DNA of 64,000 nucleotides from Desulfurococcus amylolyticus Z-533 (GCF_000513855.1 NZ_KI911318.1:62001-126000); one strand, 5' to 3'; shown: positions 59,000 through 64,000, counted from the first letter of the stretch. Notes: a model not told the origin generated them from the sequence alone. Numbers and translations: made by a program.

Positions 59000-60718
59000 T
59001 CATGCCTTGGAGCGGATTACTCCTTCATATGCTAGCTTATATATTTCACTGGACTCCAGCCTCCTCCTATCCCTAATATATTTCCTGGTTACCTGTCCTT
59101 TTGGTAGACCGTATTTGCTCGAGTATTCTTCAAGTGATATACCGTATTCTTTATGTATTTTATCCCTGTATATGTCGTCGAATATGTTGAATGCGCAGAA
59201 AGGTATTAATCTACCATCTGGCACCGAGTAATGTATATTACATCTCTGTACCCTCTGTATATCGTAGTTGTAGAGGTCCATGAAGTGCATTTGGCCCAGG
59301 AATAATAGCTTGTAATGGAGCTCACCCAGTGCCTCATAGCTTCGCTTTATTATAACGTTGAACAATAGCTTGTATAAGTCGAATTCCTCGGGCTGCTTGC
59401 TTGAGTCAATGAATTTCCTTATGGAATATAACAGCCTCAGCCCAACCATATACCTGTTCGACCCAGTTACGAGGTCCTCCCATTTCTCTCTTAGGTATTC
59501 GAGTAAACCCTCCACATCAACGAAACTAGTGATAGGTATCAGCTTTATCTCGTTGCTTTTTTTCTCGACATATATATAGGTTCCAACGCCGCATATCGGG
59601 TGGTTACTCATCTCGAACTTGAATTCGCCGCTGAATCCCTCTATGAACCTTGAGAATAATGCGCTAACGTTTATCGGGAACCATGCATCTCTGGTTACCT
59701 GTCCATCGGTCTGCTCCTCTATCAACTTTACTACCTCTGGTATTGTTATCCTGTACTTTTCCCTCTCATGCTTCTTCATGTATCCAGTGAGGCTCACCGG
59801 CTGGAAGTTCACTGCTCTTATAACATCCATGTGTTTAGCAGCGAACCTGACTATAGCTCCGAGCTCATGTGTGTTCACGCCTTTAATAACCGTTGGAACC
59901 AGTACAGTACTGGTCATGCCGGCCTTCCTGAACGTCTCAAGTATGTATGGTACCTCCCAGTGGTTCTTCCAGTTTGTTACGGGCGTTACCCCGTCGAAGC
60001 TGAGGTATACTGTGTTTACGCCGCTGCTTCTCAGCTCCCTAGCGTACTCGACTGCTTTAACTGGGTCCTCTATATATAGCTCGGCGAATCTTATCCCATT
60101 AGTATTTAACTGTATGTGTCTTACCCCCTCTTCCTTTAATAGCTTCACGATGTCGACGAGATCCTCCCTTAATAATGGTTCCCCTCCAGTCAACTGTATT
60201 GCAACGGTTACACCCTGCTTCTTAATGCTTCTAACCATCTCCCTTATTTGATCCAGTCTCGGCTCGTAGACGTATCCCGAGGCCTCCGAGTAAAAGAAGC
60301 AGTACCAGCAGGATAAGTTACATCTATTTGTTACAACCATATTCACCAGCGCCGTATGTTGTTTATGCATCGGGCATAATCCACAGTTGAATGGACATAG
60401 TGTTTTAACCTGTGTGTATATGTGTCTAGCCCCCCTCCCGTCTTCAGTGTACTTTACAACCCTCTTATAGAAATCTACATCGCCGTAGTATAGTTCCTCG
60501 ATTTCACCGTGTTCCGGGCAGATTCTTCTAATATATACCTTCCCATCTCTCTCAACTATTACAGCTGGGAGAACCCTGTAGCAGTATGGGCAAACACTTG
60601 TTGTAAGGGATAATACTTCCTCGCCGCTATGTAGCTTCGGCAGGATGTAAACTATTTCACCGGGCTTCTTTGATGACTCCTGAATACTCAAATCACTCAC
60701 CAGGTAGTCTATAAACAT
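59000..60718 (-). CDS. Radical SAM enzyme, tetraether synthase (Tes)-like
   Basis: 572 residues. SAM-cluster motif CNLSCWYC (C133, C137, C140), a preceding CPFNCGLCPMHKQHT (108-122), N-terminal CPYC (43-46) and CPEHG (67-71), then LTGGEPLLREDLV near 177 and NTNGIR near 207. The CxxxCGLCxxH block before the radical SAM motif is typical of the COG1964/Tes family that couples archaeol biphytanyl chains into GDGT, so I infer that role; ring-forming Grs proteins differ. The ATG at 60718 is at the predicted transcript start; a TTG at 60691 with GGTGA upstream is an alternative. Confidence 0.78.
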   Translation of the reverse strand: MFIDYLVSDLSIQESSKKPGEIVYILPKLHSGEEVLSLTTSVCPYCYRVLPAVIVERDGKVYIRRICPEHGEIEELYYGDVDFYKRVVKYTEDGRGARHIYTQVKTLCPFNCGLCPMHKQHTALVNMVVTNRCNLSCWYCFFYSEASGYVYEPRLDQIREMVRSIKKQGVTVAIQLTGGEPLLREDLVDIVKLLKEEGVRHIQLNTNGIRFAELYIEDPVKAVEYARELRSSGVNTVYLSFDGVTPVTNWKNHWEVPYILETFRKAGMTSTVLVPTVIKGVNTHELGAIVRFAAKHMDVIRAVNFQPVSLTGYMKKHEREKYRITIPEVVKLIEEQTDGQVTRDAWFPINVSALFSRFIEGFSGEFKFEMSNHPICGVGTYIYVEKKSNEIKLIPITSFVDVEGLLEYLREKWEDLVTGSNRYMVGLRLLYSIRKFIDSSKQPEEFDLYKLLFNVIIKRSYEALGELHYKLLFLGQMHFMDLYNYDIQRVQRCNIHYSVPDGRLIPFCAFNIFDDIYRDKIHKEYGISLEEYSSKYGLPKGQVTRKYIRDRRRLESSEIYKLAYEGVIRSKA

Positions 60719-60808: not shown

Positions 60809-61390
60809 ATGGGTAAGATAATAGTGGTAGCTGGGGTACCTGGTACAGGGAAGACCAGTGTATCAAGGGAGCTGGCCTCCCTGACGGGGTTTCAGCTAAT
60901 CGAGCTTGGAAGGTATGCCTTGGAGAGAGGGCTAGTTACTGGTTTCGACGATGAGAGGGGTAGCTATGTGATAGATGAGGATGCTTTGTCGCGTGAGGTG
61001 TCAATGCTTGCTGGGAATAGTGAAGGCTATATCATAGTTAGCACCCATTACCCTGAGATCCTGGATCCCAGTGTAGTTGAAAAAGTATTCGTGCTGAGAA
61101 CACATCCCCTGGTACTGGAGAAGAGGCTTGAGTCGAGGGGGTGGGATAGGAGGAAGATCAATGAGAACGTGATGGCCGAGATACTTGGTGTCGTATCATA
61201 TAATGCGTTAACAGTGTTCGGTGAGGAAAAAATATATGAGATCGATACATCTAACACTACACCAGGCGAGGTAGCAGGGCTCGTAGCCGATATACTAAGC
61301 AATAAGACTGTTATCCCCCCAGGCATCAGAATAGACTGGCTCTCAGTACTCTCAGCCGAGGAGTTATCGAGGTTTGAGAGCTATGAGTAG
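60809..61390 (+). CDS. AK6/Fap7-type adenylate kinase family NTPase
   Basis: 193 residues. P-loop GVPGTGKTS (9-17), ELGRYALERGLVTGFDDERGSYVIDEDAL near 31-60, and a LID-type RLESRGWDRRKINENVMAEI near 109-128. This is the archaeal homolog of Fap7/hCINAP, which aids small-subunit maturation, and is also a nucleoside-monophosphate kinase. GGGGTG precedes the ATG. First gene of a four-gene plus-strand operon. Confidence 0.88.
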   Translation: MGKIIVVAGVPGTGKTSVSRELASLTGFQLIELGRYALERGLVTGFDDERGSYVIDEDALSREVSMLAGNSEGYIIVSTHYPEILDPSVVEKVFVLRTHPLVLEKRLESRGWDRRKINENVMAEILGVVSYNALTVFGEEKIYEIDTSNTTPGEVAGLVADILSNKTVIPPGIRIDWLSVLSAEELSRFESYE

Positions 61391-62225
61391 GGGGGGATTC
61401 ATACTAGCGTCGTGGAGCCAGCTAGATAGAATGATCTCCAGGGTAGACGTCGTCTTAATGGTGCTGGATGCAAGGGATCCCTTAGGCACGTTCAGTAAGA
61501 GGCTTGAATCCATTGTTAGGGAAAGAGGGAAGAAGCTTATCCTGGTGTTAAACAAGTCTGACCTGGTTCCCAGGAACGTGGTAGAGGAGTGGAAGAAGTA
61601 CTTCATGGAGAAAGGATATACAACGGTCTACATGGCTGCCGCCAGACACATGGGTACCCTCAGGCTCAGGAGGACTATACGTAGAGTAGCCCCCTCGCTG
61701 CCGACGATAGTGGCTGTAACAGGGTATCCCAAGGTCGGTAAGTCATCCATAATAAACGGGTTGAAGGGGAGGCATTCAGCCCCGACAAGCCCGTACCCGG
61801 GAAGCCCAGGGTACACGAGGCATTTCCAATTATACCGTGTAGACAAGGATATACTGCTGGTCGACTCGCCTGGAGTGATACCTGTCGAAGGAGGGGAACT
61901 TGAAAGGGTGATAAGGGGTTATCCAATAGAGAAGCTCGAGGACCCAGTTCTCCCAGCTATGAAGCTCATCGAGAGGATAATGACCTACCACCCCAACGCG
62001 TTCATGGAGGCTTATGGTGTTAGTGAAAGGGATCCCTTGAGGATCCTTGAGGAGATAGCTGTAAGGCACGGGTGGTTCTATAAAACTACCAGGGAGCCCT
62101 TAATCGAGGAAGCAGCTAGGAAGGTGATTAGGGATTACCATGATGGAGTCGTGAAATTCTATATAAGACCGGCTTGGATCAGAGATATTGGTGAGCCATG
62201 TGATCAAGGTGAAGGTGACCGGTGA
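61383..62225 (+). CDS. Circularly permuted GTPase (YlqF/Nog2/Nug1-like)
   Basis: 280 residues from ATG 61383 (SRGGFILASW). The GTPase motifs are in permuted order: G4 NKSD (57-60), G5-like SAA as MAAA near 84, then G1 GYPKVGKSS (114-122) and G3 DSPG (161-164), typical of ribosome-assembly GTPases of the YlqF type. It overlaps AK6 by eight bases, which is a sign of co-translation with another assembly factor. Confidence 0.92.
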   Translation: MSRGGFILASWSQLDRMISRVDVVLMVLDARDPLGTFSKRLESIVRERGKKLILVLNKSDLVPRNVVEEWKKYFMEKGYTTVYMAAARHMGTLRLRRTIRRVAPSLPTIVAVTGYPKVGKSSIINGLKGRHSAPTSPYPGSPGYTRHFQLYRVDKDILLVDSPGVIPVEGGELERVIRGYPIEKLEDPVLPAMKLIERIMTYHPNAFMEAYGVSERDPLRILEEIAVRHGWFYKTTREPLIEEAARKVIRDYHDGVVKFYIRPAWIRDIGEPCDQGEGDR

Positions 62226-62400
62226 GCAAGCACCTAGAATACTTGATGTCGGAGAGATAAGTGTTTCAGAGCTACTTAGAAGGCTGGGGCTCTCTAAATC
62301 AGAGCATATAGTGCTAAGGGAGGGAATCCCTCTAACAGAGGACGACATCATCAGGGATGGAGACGAGGTAGTTGTATACCTGGTTAAATCAGGTGGGTAG
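62200..62400 (+). CDS. Ubiquitin-like beta-grasp protein ending Gly-Gly (UBL1)
   Basis: ~66 residues from GTG 62200, four bases after GGTGAG; TTG 62188 and GTG 62191 are also in frame. Strand-helix-strand pattern VIKVKVTGE, ISVSELLRRLGL, HIVLREGIPL, DDIIRDGDEVVVYLVKSGG. The ending GG with a preceding DGDEVVV strand matches ThiS/MoaD/Urm1/SAMP sulfur carriers or modifiers. It overlaps the cpGTPase by 26 bases and is two bases from the E1 gene, so it is likely that E1's substrate. Confidence 0.82.
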   Translation: MIKVKVTGEQAPRILDVGEISVSELLRRLGLSKSEHIVLREGIPLTEDDIIRDGDEVVVYLVKSGG

Positions 62401-62402
62401 GG

Positions 62403-63170
62403 ATGAGTCTAAGCAGTGTAGAGTATGAGAGGTATAGTAGGCAGTTGCCAATAATAGGCGTGGAAGGGCAGTTGAAGCTTAAGAAGACGAGCATCCTGGT
62501 CGCTGGTGCCGGCGGCCTCGCATCCACGATACTCTATTATTTAACAGCAGCTGGGGTCGGGAGGATAGTGTTTATCGATGACGGGCTGGTGGAGCTGAGT
62601 AATCTCCAGAGGCAGATACTATACAATACAGAGGACATAGGGAGACCAAAGGTGCTGGCTTCATATGAGAAGCTGGGGAAGCTGAATCCAGGTGTGACGC
62701 TGGAACCTATACAGGCGACTATAAGTAGGGAACTCCTGGATAAACTAGTCCCCAGCGTGGATATAGTTGTCGATGCCCTAGATAACTGGGAGACACGATT
62801 CCTGCTTGACGAGTCTGCCTGGAGGTATGGAAAACCACTTGTTCACGCTGGGGTTGGAGAGTATTATGGACAATTAACAGTTGTGATACCTGGTAAAACC
62901 CCCTGTCTTAGATACTTGTTCCGCAGTGTTGGAGGAGGCGAGAGGGGAAGGATCATAGTCATGGCTCATATACCGGGCTTGCTTGGATTACTGGAGGTAA
63001 ACGAAGTATTTAAGCTCATACTGGGCTACGGTTCTCCATTAGCCGGTAAAATACTATTGTTCAATGCGAAAACCCCTTCGATAGACCTTGTTGAAGTGAA
63101 GTATGAGAATAGTGAAGAAATAGAAAAATACTGTGGCGAACCCGGAGTCAACCACCCATCTCGGGAGTAA
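62403..63170 (+). CDS. E1-like activating enzyme (ThiF/MoeB/UbaA family), cysteine-poor
   Basis: 255 residues. Rossmann GAGGLAS (35-41), DDGLVELSNLQRQILY (59-74) with Arg70/Gln71, RPKVL with Lys83, DALDNWETR (124-132) and the C-terminal GLLGLLEVNEVFKLILG helix. These residues bind ATP and adenylate the UBL. The usual two CxxC zinc pairs are missing: only Cys168 (TPCLRY) and Cys244 (KYCGEP) occur in the protein, and the active-site Cys position reads VMAHIP. So it can probably adenylate but not form a thioester at the usual site. Adjacent to UBL1. Confidence 0.86.
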   Translation: MSLSSVEYERYSRQLPIIGVEGQLKLKKTSILVAGAGGLASTILYYLTAAGVGRIVFIDDGLVELSNLQRQILYNTEDIGRPKVLASYEKLGKLNPGVTLEPIQATISRELLDKLVPSVDIVVDALDNWETRFLLDESAWRYGKPLVHAGVGEYYGQLTVVIPGKTPCLRYLFRSVGGGERGRIIVMAHIPGLLGLLEVNEVFKLILGYGSPLAGKILLFNAKTPSIDLVEVKYENSEEIEKYCGEPGVNHPSRE

Positions 63171-63411
63171 CCAGCGCTATCCTATCGCCGTCTTTCAAAG
63201 GAGTATCTGGGGATAGAACTGGCTTATCGTTTACGAGTGTTACAAATATGTAGTGTCCATCAATATATCTCTCGTAGAGCAATGGGTTGGTTTTCTCGCT
63301 GAGAACCCTAATGGCATCCCTTAGCATGGCTCCCTCGGGGAGCTCTAGCTCCACTATGCTTCTACCAGTGTAATCGCTCGCCCTCCCCAGCGTGATCACT
63401 GTGATTCTCAT
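63148..63411 (-). CDS. Ubiquitin-like/MoaD-type protein ending Gly-Gly (UBL2)
   Basis: 87 residues from ATG 63411 (RITVITLGRASDY), with GGAGAGG upstream and a TATA-like TTTAAGA at 63454-63460; a longer frame upstream would cross that TATA. MoaD-like order: ITVITLGRA, helix LRDAIRVLSEKTNPL, strand GHYIFVTLVND, DTPLKDGDRIALVTPEMGG. It is convergent with the E1 gene and overlaps its 3' end by 23 bases. Could be MoaD for molybdopterin/tungstopterin or a SAMP; sequence does not decide. Confidence 0.82.
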   Translation of the reverse strand: MRITVITLGRASDYTGRSIVELELPEGAMLRDAIRVLSEKTNPLLYERYIDGHYIFVTLVNDKPVLSPDTPLKDGDRIALVTPEMGG

Positions 63412-63540
63412 AAGGTGGTCCTCTCCCCTAGCTACTATTATCCTTACTACTCTCTTAAATCTTAACACGGTTATACAGCTTCAAATATGTGAAAACGCTT
63501 CCATCGCCACCTATGATATCATCCTCGATGATTGAGTAAT

Positions 63541-63823
63541 TTCTGGACACCATCGTAGAGAACTTTCAGAGACGAGCAACCAGTAAGCCGGTTTATGTCC
63601 CTTAAAGAAGCGGGGGTTTCAAGCGATTTATTCGCATTCAATATTGACAGGCTACGTATGCATGTTTGTGGATGAGTGTGGAGGTATAGATGAGCCAATA
63701 ACGAACATCGTTGATCCACCTATTATAAAGCTCGTCACTAAGAGCTCACCTCACCGGTGGACCTTATCCTTCAGGACAGGGAGAGGTTGGCTGGTGATGC
63801 TGTATCTGGAGACTATCTTTTAG
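63541..63823 (+). pseudogene. Possible frame-shifted gene remnant or spurious frames
   Basis: In the 426-base gap between UBL2 and UBL3 two plus-strand frames are open one after the other: 63556-63675 (after a stop; FMSLKEAGVSSDLFAFNIDRL) and, shifted by one, 63662-63823 (DECGGIDEPITNIVDPPIIK). Their combined codon flow looks protein-like but I recognise no family and see no ribosome site. The stretch CCTTATCCTTCAGGACAGGG at 63762-63781 looks like another IS605-type hairpin. It may be decayed, so treat as uncertain. Confidence 0.25.
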
Positions 63824-63837
63824 GATTTGGTAATTGG

Positions 63838-64000
63838 TTAGCCACCGAGGAATTCCTCTATTATTAGGACACGGTTTCCACTTGTTATCTTCATAGTGTA
63901 GTCCTCTACGAGCCTGTCATCTACTAGTACTATGATGTTGTTTCCTGTAAGCTTGTCCCTGGCTGATTCCACCAGGTCTGCTACCCGGGCTTCCTCAGCA
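63838..64000 (-). CDS. Third Gly-Gly-ending beta-grasp protein (UBL3), 5' end outside window
   Basis: Only the last 53 residues are in the window; the frame is open to the edge. They read ADLVESARDKLTG, NIIVLVDDRLV, and SGNRVLIIEEFLGG with the terminal Gly-Gly before TAA. This strand arrangement and the LGG end fit the ubiquitin-like family of MoaD, ThiS and Urm1. Full length and start cannot be determined. The third such gene within 1.8 kb of the E1. Confidence 0.65.
   Translation of the reverse strand, partial: AEEARVADLVESARDKLTGNNIIVLVDDRLVEDYTMKITSGNRVLIIEEFLGG

Follow-up and report, generated by a model that had tools for sequence, protein, structure and literature searches.

How does a single activating enzyme come to stand among three small proteins that look like its substrates, and what might it do with them? 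The question is raised by a locus of Desulfurococcus amylolyticus Z-533, in which a gene for a ubiquitin-like-protein-activating enzyme (E1) is surrounded by genes for three ubiquitin-like proteins (UBLs) ending in Gly-Gly. It lies at the end of the window, the stretch of 64,000 nucleotides that was analysed (genome contig C1, 62001-126000). The UBLs of archaea are closely related to the machinery thought to be ancestral to ubiquitin signalling, and a small, conserved locus in which three UBLs accompany one E1 permits a direct test of how one activating enzyme tells its partners apart. We read the locus, with a probability of roughly 60%, as a conserved activation site at which several ubiquitin-like sulfur carriers share one E1 of the ThiF/MoeB type.

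An earlier note on this DNA, made from the sequence alone, had described three GG-ending UBLs around one E1, and all of the frames are present. UBL1, a SAMP2/ThiS-type protein (62200..62400, plus strand), has 66 amino acids from a GTG placed by homology (the mechanical ORF start is a TTG at 62188) and ends in VKSGG. Its stop codon ends at 62400, two bases before the ATG of the E1 gene at 62403, and both the KSGG ending and this distance are as first described. The E1 gene (62403..63170, plus strand) encodes 255 amino acids. UBL2, of the MoaD/ThiS type (63148..63411, minus strand), has 87 amino acids from the ATG at 63411, again chosen by homology over the mechanical start, a GTG at 63468, and ends in TPEMGG. 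The reported EMGG ending is there, and the gene converges with that of the E1 and overlaps its 3′ end by 23 bases, the UBL2 stop ending at 63148 and the E1 gene at 63170. UBL3 (minus strand) occupies 63838..64000 and continues to genome base 126056, or 64056 if the window is extended, so that the window holds the C-terminal 53 of its 72 amino acids; read from the genome, with the 56 bases that lie beyond the window, it runs from a GTG start to LGG. The LGG ending, the minus strand and a distance of about 430 bases from UBL2 had been noted; the stop codon of UBL3 ends at 63838 and UBL2 starts at 63411, which leaves 426 bases. In most relatives this spacer is shorter, between a few bases and some tens, and a search of the window's own spacer (63412-63837) for repeats found none. 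The window's six frames contain 172 ORFs of 50-130 amino acids, and just two of these have GG at the end, precisely UBL1 and UBL2, which argues that such endings do not simply reflect a long list of ORFs.

Two genes precede the cluster on the plus strand. A YlqF/MMR_HSR1-type GTPase (61392..62225, predicted start; PF01926, 60 bits) overlaps the start of UBL1 and is the upstream neighbour in most relatives also. It follows a small kinase-like protein (60809..61390; NF003012 putative kinase, 98.9 bits, below the cut-off of 152), and the order of these two is conserved. Further upstream, on the minus strand, is a gene for the tetraether lipid synthase Tes (59000-60718; 717 bits, cut-off 450), which lies near the cluster here and is found next to it in several genera.

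Profile searches, which the earlier note had proposed, placed UBL1 with SAMP2 and UBL2 with ThiS/MoaD above the cut-offs, and gave no significant family match for UBL3. UBL1 matched Pfam PF21965 (SAMP2) at 33.6 bits (cut-off 27) and fell short of the NCBIfam SAMP2 equivalog NF041919 (23.1 bits against a cut-off of 70); by these scores it is a relative of that equivalog, not a member. Its nearest solved structure is P. furiosus SAMP2 (9e-12), and the KSGG terminus is without variation in 15 aligned homologues. UBL2 matched PF02597, the ThiS/MoaD family, at 31.3 bits (cut-off 22.5), and did not reach TIGR01687 (moaD_arch), with 29.2 bits against 49.5. It falls on the MoaD side of the tree, the MoaD-like entry 1vjk is its nearest solved relative, and its TPEMGG end is invariant in 16 aligned homologues. 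No moaE or other moa gene neighbours UBL2 in the host genome; moaA, moaC, moaD and moaE sit together at 393 kb. The idea that UBL2 and UBL3 are parts of a molybdopterin operon, which would have severed them from this E1, was rejected, as the moa operon lies at another site and includes a MoaD of its own, and UBL2 and UBL3 stay with the E1 across genera.

UBL3 found no family in NCBIfam at E ≤ 1, and in Pfam only a match to DUF3016 below the cut-off, PF21965 and PF02597 being unmatched at E ≤ 1. The UBL3 family is absent from the curated libraries searched (Pfam and NCBIfam). A profile built from 23 of its homologues reached SAMP2 at 9e-6 only; compared with the profiles of UBL1 and UBL2, it matched both with a probability of about 97%. 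Since the window holds UBL3 in part, a Thermogladius homologue was modelled, and this member of the family, on whose fold the earlier note had made its proposal depend, is predicted to be a beta-grasp domain (pLDDT 90). Foldseek matched the model to MoaD, ThiS, SAMP1, TtuB and ubiquitin; superposed on ubiquitin, MoaD and TtuB it gave VIA Z 8.2-8.7 over 63-70 residues, with an rmsd of 2.1-3.4. With scores so close together, these matches identify the fold but not the function.

In a single tree, UBL1, UBL2 and UBL3 form three clades, with supports of 98/91 for UBL3 and 98/97 and 100/94 for the others. The deeper joins are unsure because the alignment has few columns (85) for 74 rows, and long branches meet. 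As the clades are separate, the proposal that UBL3 is a recent copy of UBL1 or UBL2 was rejected. That it is a chance frame ending in GG was rejected also, since it is kept in 35 genomes of the family and the fold of its homologue is modelled with confidence. It scores at least 60 bits in 32 genomes, all in the window's taxonomic family, and 44-51 bits in three more of that family. UBL3 is confined almost entirely to this archaeal family. The only match of such strength outside it is a UBL3-like domain (51 bits; G093:C33:80317-80514) inside an open frame of 406 amino acids.

Searches for conservation of the locus covered 229 genomes of the class and 40 of the family, and 35 regions around UBL3, UBL1 or the E1 in other genomes of the family were compared. 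UBL3 lies within 5 kb of the E1 gene in 26 of the 35 UBL3-bearing genomes of the family, in 10 genera (G000-G009, G011-G013, G015, G020-G028, G037-G039); these genomes are related, so they are not 26 independent cases. Nearly always, a UBL3-UBL2 pair converges on the E1 gene. UBL2 is at the locus in 25 of the 26 genomes, with a broken frame in G003, G007 and G020. UBL1 is in the cluster in 11 genomes, and the full set of four genes is found in ten, of four genera; in genera g3, g5, g11 and g16 UBL1 is elsewhere. Genus g3 has a B12-binding radical-SAM-like gene, named by eye from its sequence, between UBL3 and UBL2. The comparison of gene order that the earlier note had suggested thus finds UBL2 and UBL3 staying with the E1 across genera, and since the arrangement is so kept, the cluster is very likely a real biochemical unit and not a product of chance.

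Might the genes be together only because the family keeps its gene order? The kinase and GTPase genes beside the E1 are kept as well, as this would predict. However, the flank beyond UBL3 changes several times, differing between genera, while the association of UBL3, UBL2 and E1 holds, and where the cluster splits, different sub-sets of the four genes remain together. UBL3 is away from the E1 in nine of the 35 genomes, and five of these have UBL1-UBL3 pairs without the E1; in G019, UBL3, UBL2 and UBL1 are together without it. The E1s of the unlinked kind form a separate group (support 100/98), yet in G037 (L120) an E1 of this otherwise unlinked group stands beside UBL2 and UBL3 in the same convergent place, and in G010 (L125) one follows directly after UBL2 with a small overlap. 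Either gene displacement or independent gathering could have produced this pattern. The presence of UBL2 and UBL3 beside E1s of two kinds favours a functional tie over inherited order alone, and we regard a merely shared neighbourhood as highly improbable.

A DUF2148 (ferredoxin-domain) gene lies upstream of UBL3 just past the window (L007:4213-4740, minus strand). Here its frame contains a TAG; in G001 it is open throughout. DUF2148 genes adjoin UBL3, UBL1 or the E1 in G018, G029, G030 and G032-G036. As a fixed part of the unit DUF2148 was rejected, many genomes with E1, UBL2 and UBL3 being without it.

The same comparisons bear on a second alternative, in which UBL2 and the E1 are a functional pair like TK2118-TK2117 of Thermococcus kodakarensis, UBL1 is a general carrier for tRNA thiolation, and UBL3 is a lineage-specific duplicate, redundant or regulatory, that is kept by its position. 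UBL2 lies directly upstream of the E1 gene in G010, overlapping it by a few bases, and the Thermococcus pair is likewise in tandem; UBL1 occurs in all 23 near-complete genomes of the host's family; and UBL3, nearly restricted to one family, diverges fast, its homologues being 24-40% identical to the window copy. Against this alternative, the GG end and the proline after the first strand are without variation in 23 aligned homologues of UBL3. In genus g14 UBL3 adjoins UBL1 while the E1 and UBL2 are elsewhere, which is more than passive hitch-hiking predicts, and in G002 the gene missing from the locus is UBL2, not UBL3. We consider this alternative quite unlikely.

The E1 matched PF00899 at 209 bits and has the glycine-rich ATP loop. 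ThiF and MoeB are its best solved relatives, aligned over the full length. Residues R13, D59, R70, K83 and D127 are invariant and align with R14, D62, R73, K86 and D130, the ATP-binding residues of MoeB. At the position of ThiF C184 and MoeB C187 the alignment has no cysteine in this E1, and the crossover-loop cysteine is absent from all 13 distinct E1 sequences of the family. E. coli MoeB is functional without its loop cysteine, and the change in the loop accordingly fits a mechanism in which sulfide or a persulfide attacks the adenylate directly. The zinc site of two CxxC motifs is reduced to CLRY and YCGE in the host genome; single cysteines stand in place of the pairs in the three genomes of the window's genus, and the CxxC motifs are kept in most other genera. 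A search with the PF00899 profile found this single E1 in the whole host genome.

Taken together, the families of the proteins, the missing cysteine and the Thermococcus precedent suggest that shared activation of sulfur carriers is most likely. Using ATP, the E1 would adenylate each UBL at its C-terminal glycine. As it is without a loop cysteine, the adenylate would not be passed to an E1 thioester; sulfide, or a persulfide supplied by another protein, would attack it directly to form the UBL thiocarboxylate. The thiocarboxylate of UBL1, which is SAMP2/TtuB-like, would then give its sulfur to one or both of two TtuA/NcsA-type tRNA thiolases; the MoaD-like UBL2 would supply a pterin cofactor or a similar acceptor; and UBL3 would be a third carrier, or a modifier, with an acceptor of its own. 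Candidate thiolases are encoded at L133:1207-2172 (minus strand) and L134:1354-2373 (plus strand). They are paralogous TtuA/NcsA-like proteins in one small genome, at 252 and 210 bits, below the NCBIfam equivalog cut-offs. A ThiI with a rhodanese domain, above its equivalog cut-off, is also present, and it and the pair are possible sulfur acceptors. The acceptor proposed for UBL2 is made less certain by the amidohydrolase (deaminase-like) genes that adjoin UBL2 in genus g14; a comparison of the neighbourhoods of unlinked UBL2 copies found no consistent partner gene.

The same enzyme could instead head a SAMPylation-like module, in which the three UBLs, once activated by the E1, are joined to different target proteins by isopeptide bonds and sulfur carriage is secondary. 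UBL1 is in the SAMP2 family, a Haloferax member of which is conjugated to proteins, and the model of the UBL3 homologue fits ubiquitin about as closely as it fits MoaD or TtuB, although the shared beta-grasp fold says nothing about function. The catalytic cysteine is missing from the E1 in every relative read. No JAMM protease was found in the host genome with the Prok-JAB profile (PF14464), but the control, Sulfolobus acidocaldarius, an archaeon with Urm1, was also without a match. The absence of a catalytic cysteine from these E1s, with no JAMM protease found, favours thiocarboxylate sulfur carriage over thioester chemistry, and we think a module devoted chiefly to conjugation unlikely. Sulfur carriage need not be the sole role, since in T. 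kodakarensis each of the three Ubls is conjugated to proteins as well (PMC11323500). The locus allows an E1 of this Cys-less kind to be tested for conjugation, sulfur transfer, or both.

The E1 probably has further substrates besides the three local UBLs, as it is the sole E1 found and four more GG-ending MoaD-like genes lie outside the cluster. With neighbours named from their translations, these are the moaD of the moaA-moaC-moaD-moaE group, one beside ribosomal proteins, one beside an AOR gene, and one beside the [2Fe-2S] subunit of a xanthine-dehydrogenase-type enzyme. To judge from these gene counts, up to seven UBLs may be substrates. The suggestion in the earlier note of a dedicated module accordingly stands in part: three UBLs are kept near the E1, but no second E1 was found in the genome and further candidate partners are dispersed. 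The MoaD-like gene at AOR (L010:3186-3489, minus strand, at about 742 kb) is frameshifted at a perfect inverted repeat of 17 bases with a loop of two, which could reflect either a mutation or an error of assembly; in G002 this locus has an uninterrupted frame of 100 amino acids.

A bolder form of the sulfur-carrier reading, tentative and in our view somewhat unlikely, is that UBL3 founds a new ubiquitin-like family, and that a Cys-less E1 activates three UBLs from one locus, each with a different acceptor, at least one of them new. Such a system would handle several modifiers with a minimum of parts, having no E1 thioester, E2, E3 or JAMM protease.

Several known systems resemble the locus. 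Haloferax volcanii has one E1, UbaA, for several UBLs (SAMP1, SAMP2 and SAMP3), as here, and UBL1 scores as SAMP2 in Pfam. The window E1 differs in reaching only 179 of the 450 bits that the model for SAMP-activating E1s demands and in the absence of the loop cysteine, and no Prok-JAB protein was found in the genome. From the TtuB/TtuC/TtuA system of Thermus thermophilus and NcsA of Haloferax come the likeness of UBL1 to TtuB and the presence of two TtuA/NcsA-like enzymes; the host differs in having two paralogous thiolases and extra UBLs, and no genomic link between UBL1 and TtuA. The MoaD-MoeB and ThiS-ThiF pairs of E. coli share the UBL fold and the E1 family, whereas the window E1 is without the cysteine of ThiF C184 and MoeB C187, and half of the zinc cysteines are gone in the window's genus.

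Associations of E1 and Ubl genes, the ThiS and MoaD branches, and lineage-specific Ubls in archaea were described by Makarova and Koonin in 2010 (PMC2948915). The lineage-specific Ubl arCOGs named in its main text and Table 1 are of Sulfolobales, Thermoproteales and Halobacteria, and those parts of the article describe neither a three-Ubl E1 cluster nor a Ubl family specific to Desulfurococcales (PMC2948915). A literature search, which reached few subscription journals, found no paper on the locus.

The closest parallel, described by Hidese et al., is in T. kodakarensis, another hyperthermophilic archaeon, in which one E1, TK2117, is encoded in an operon with the MoaD-type TK2118 and forms pyrophosphate in its presence (PMC11323500). 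This E1 is presumed to serve three ThiS/MoaD-type proteins, UblA (TK1093), UblB (TK2118) and UblC (TK1065), which support the tungsten cofactor and tRNA thiolation (PMC11323500). There, only TK2118 adjoins the E1 gene and the other two are scattered, whereas here three UBLs surround the E1, and UBL3 is outside the families tested. The kind of system is already known; the novelty lies in the UBL3 family and in a three-UBL locus that is conserved.
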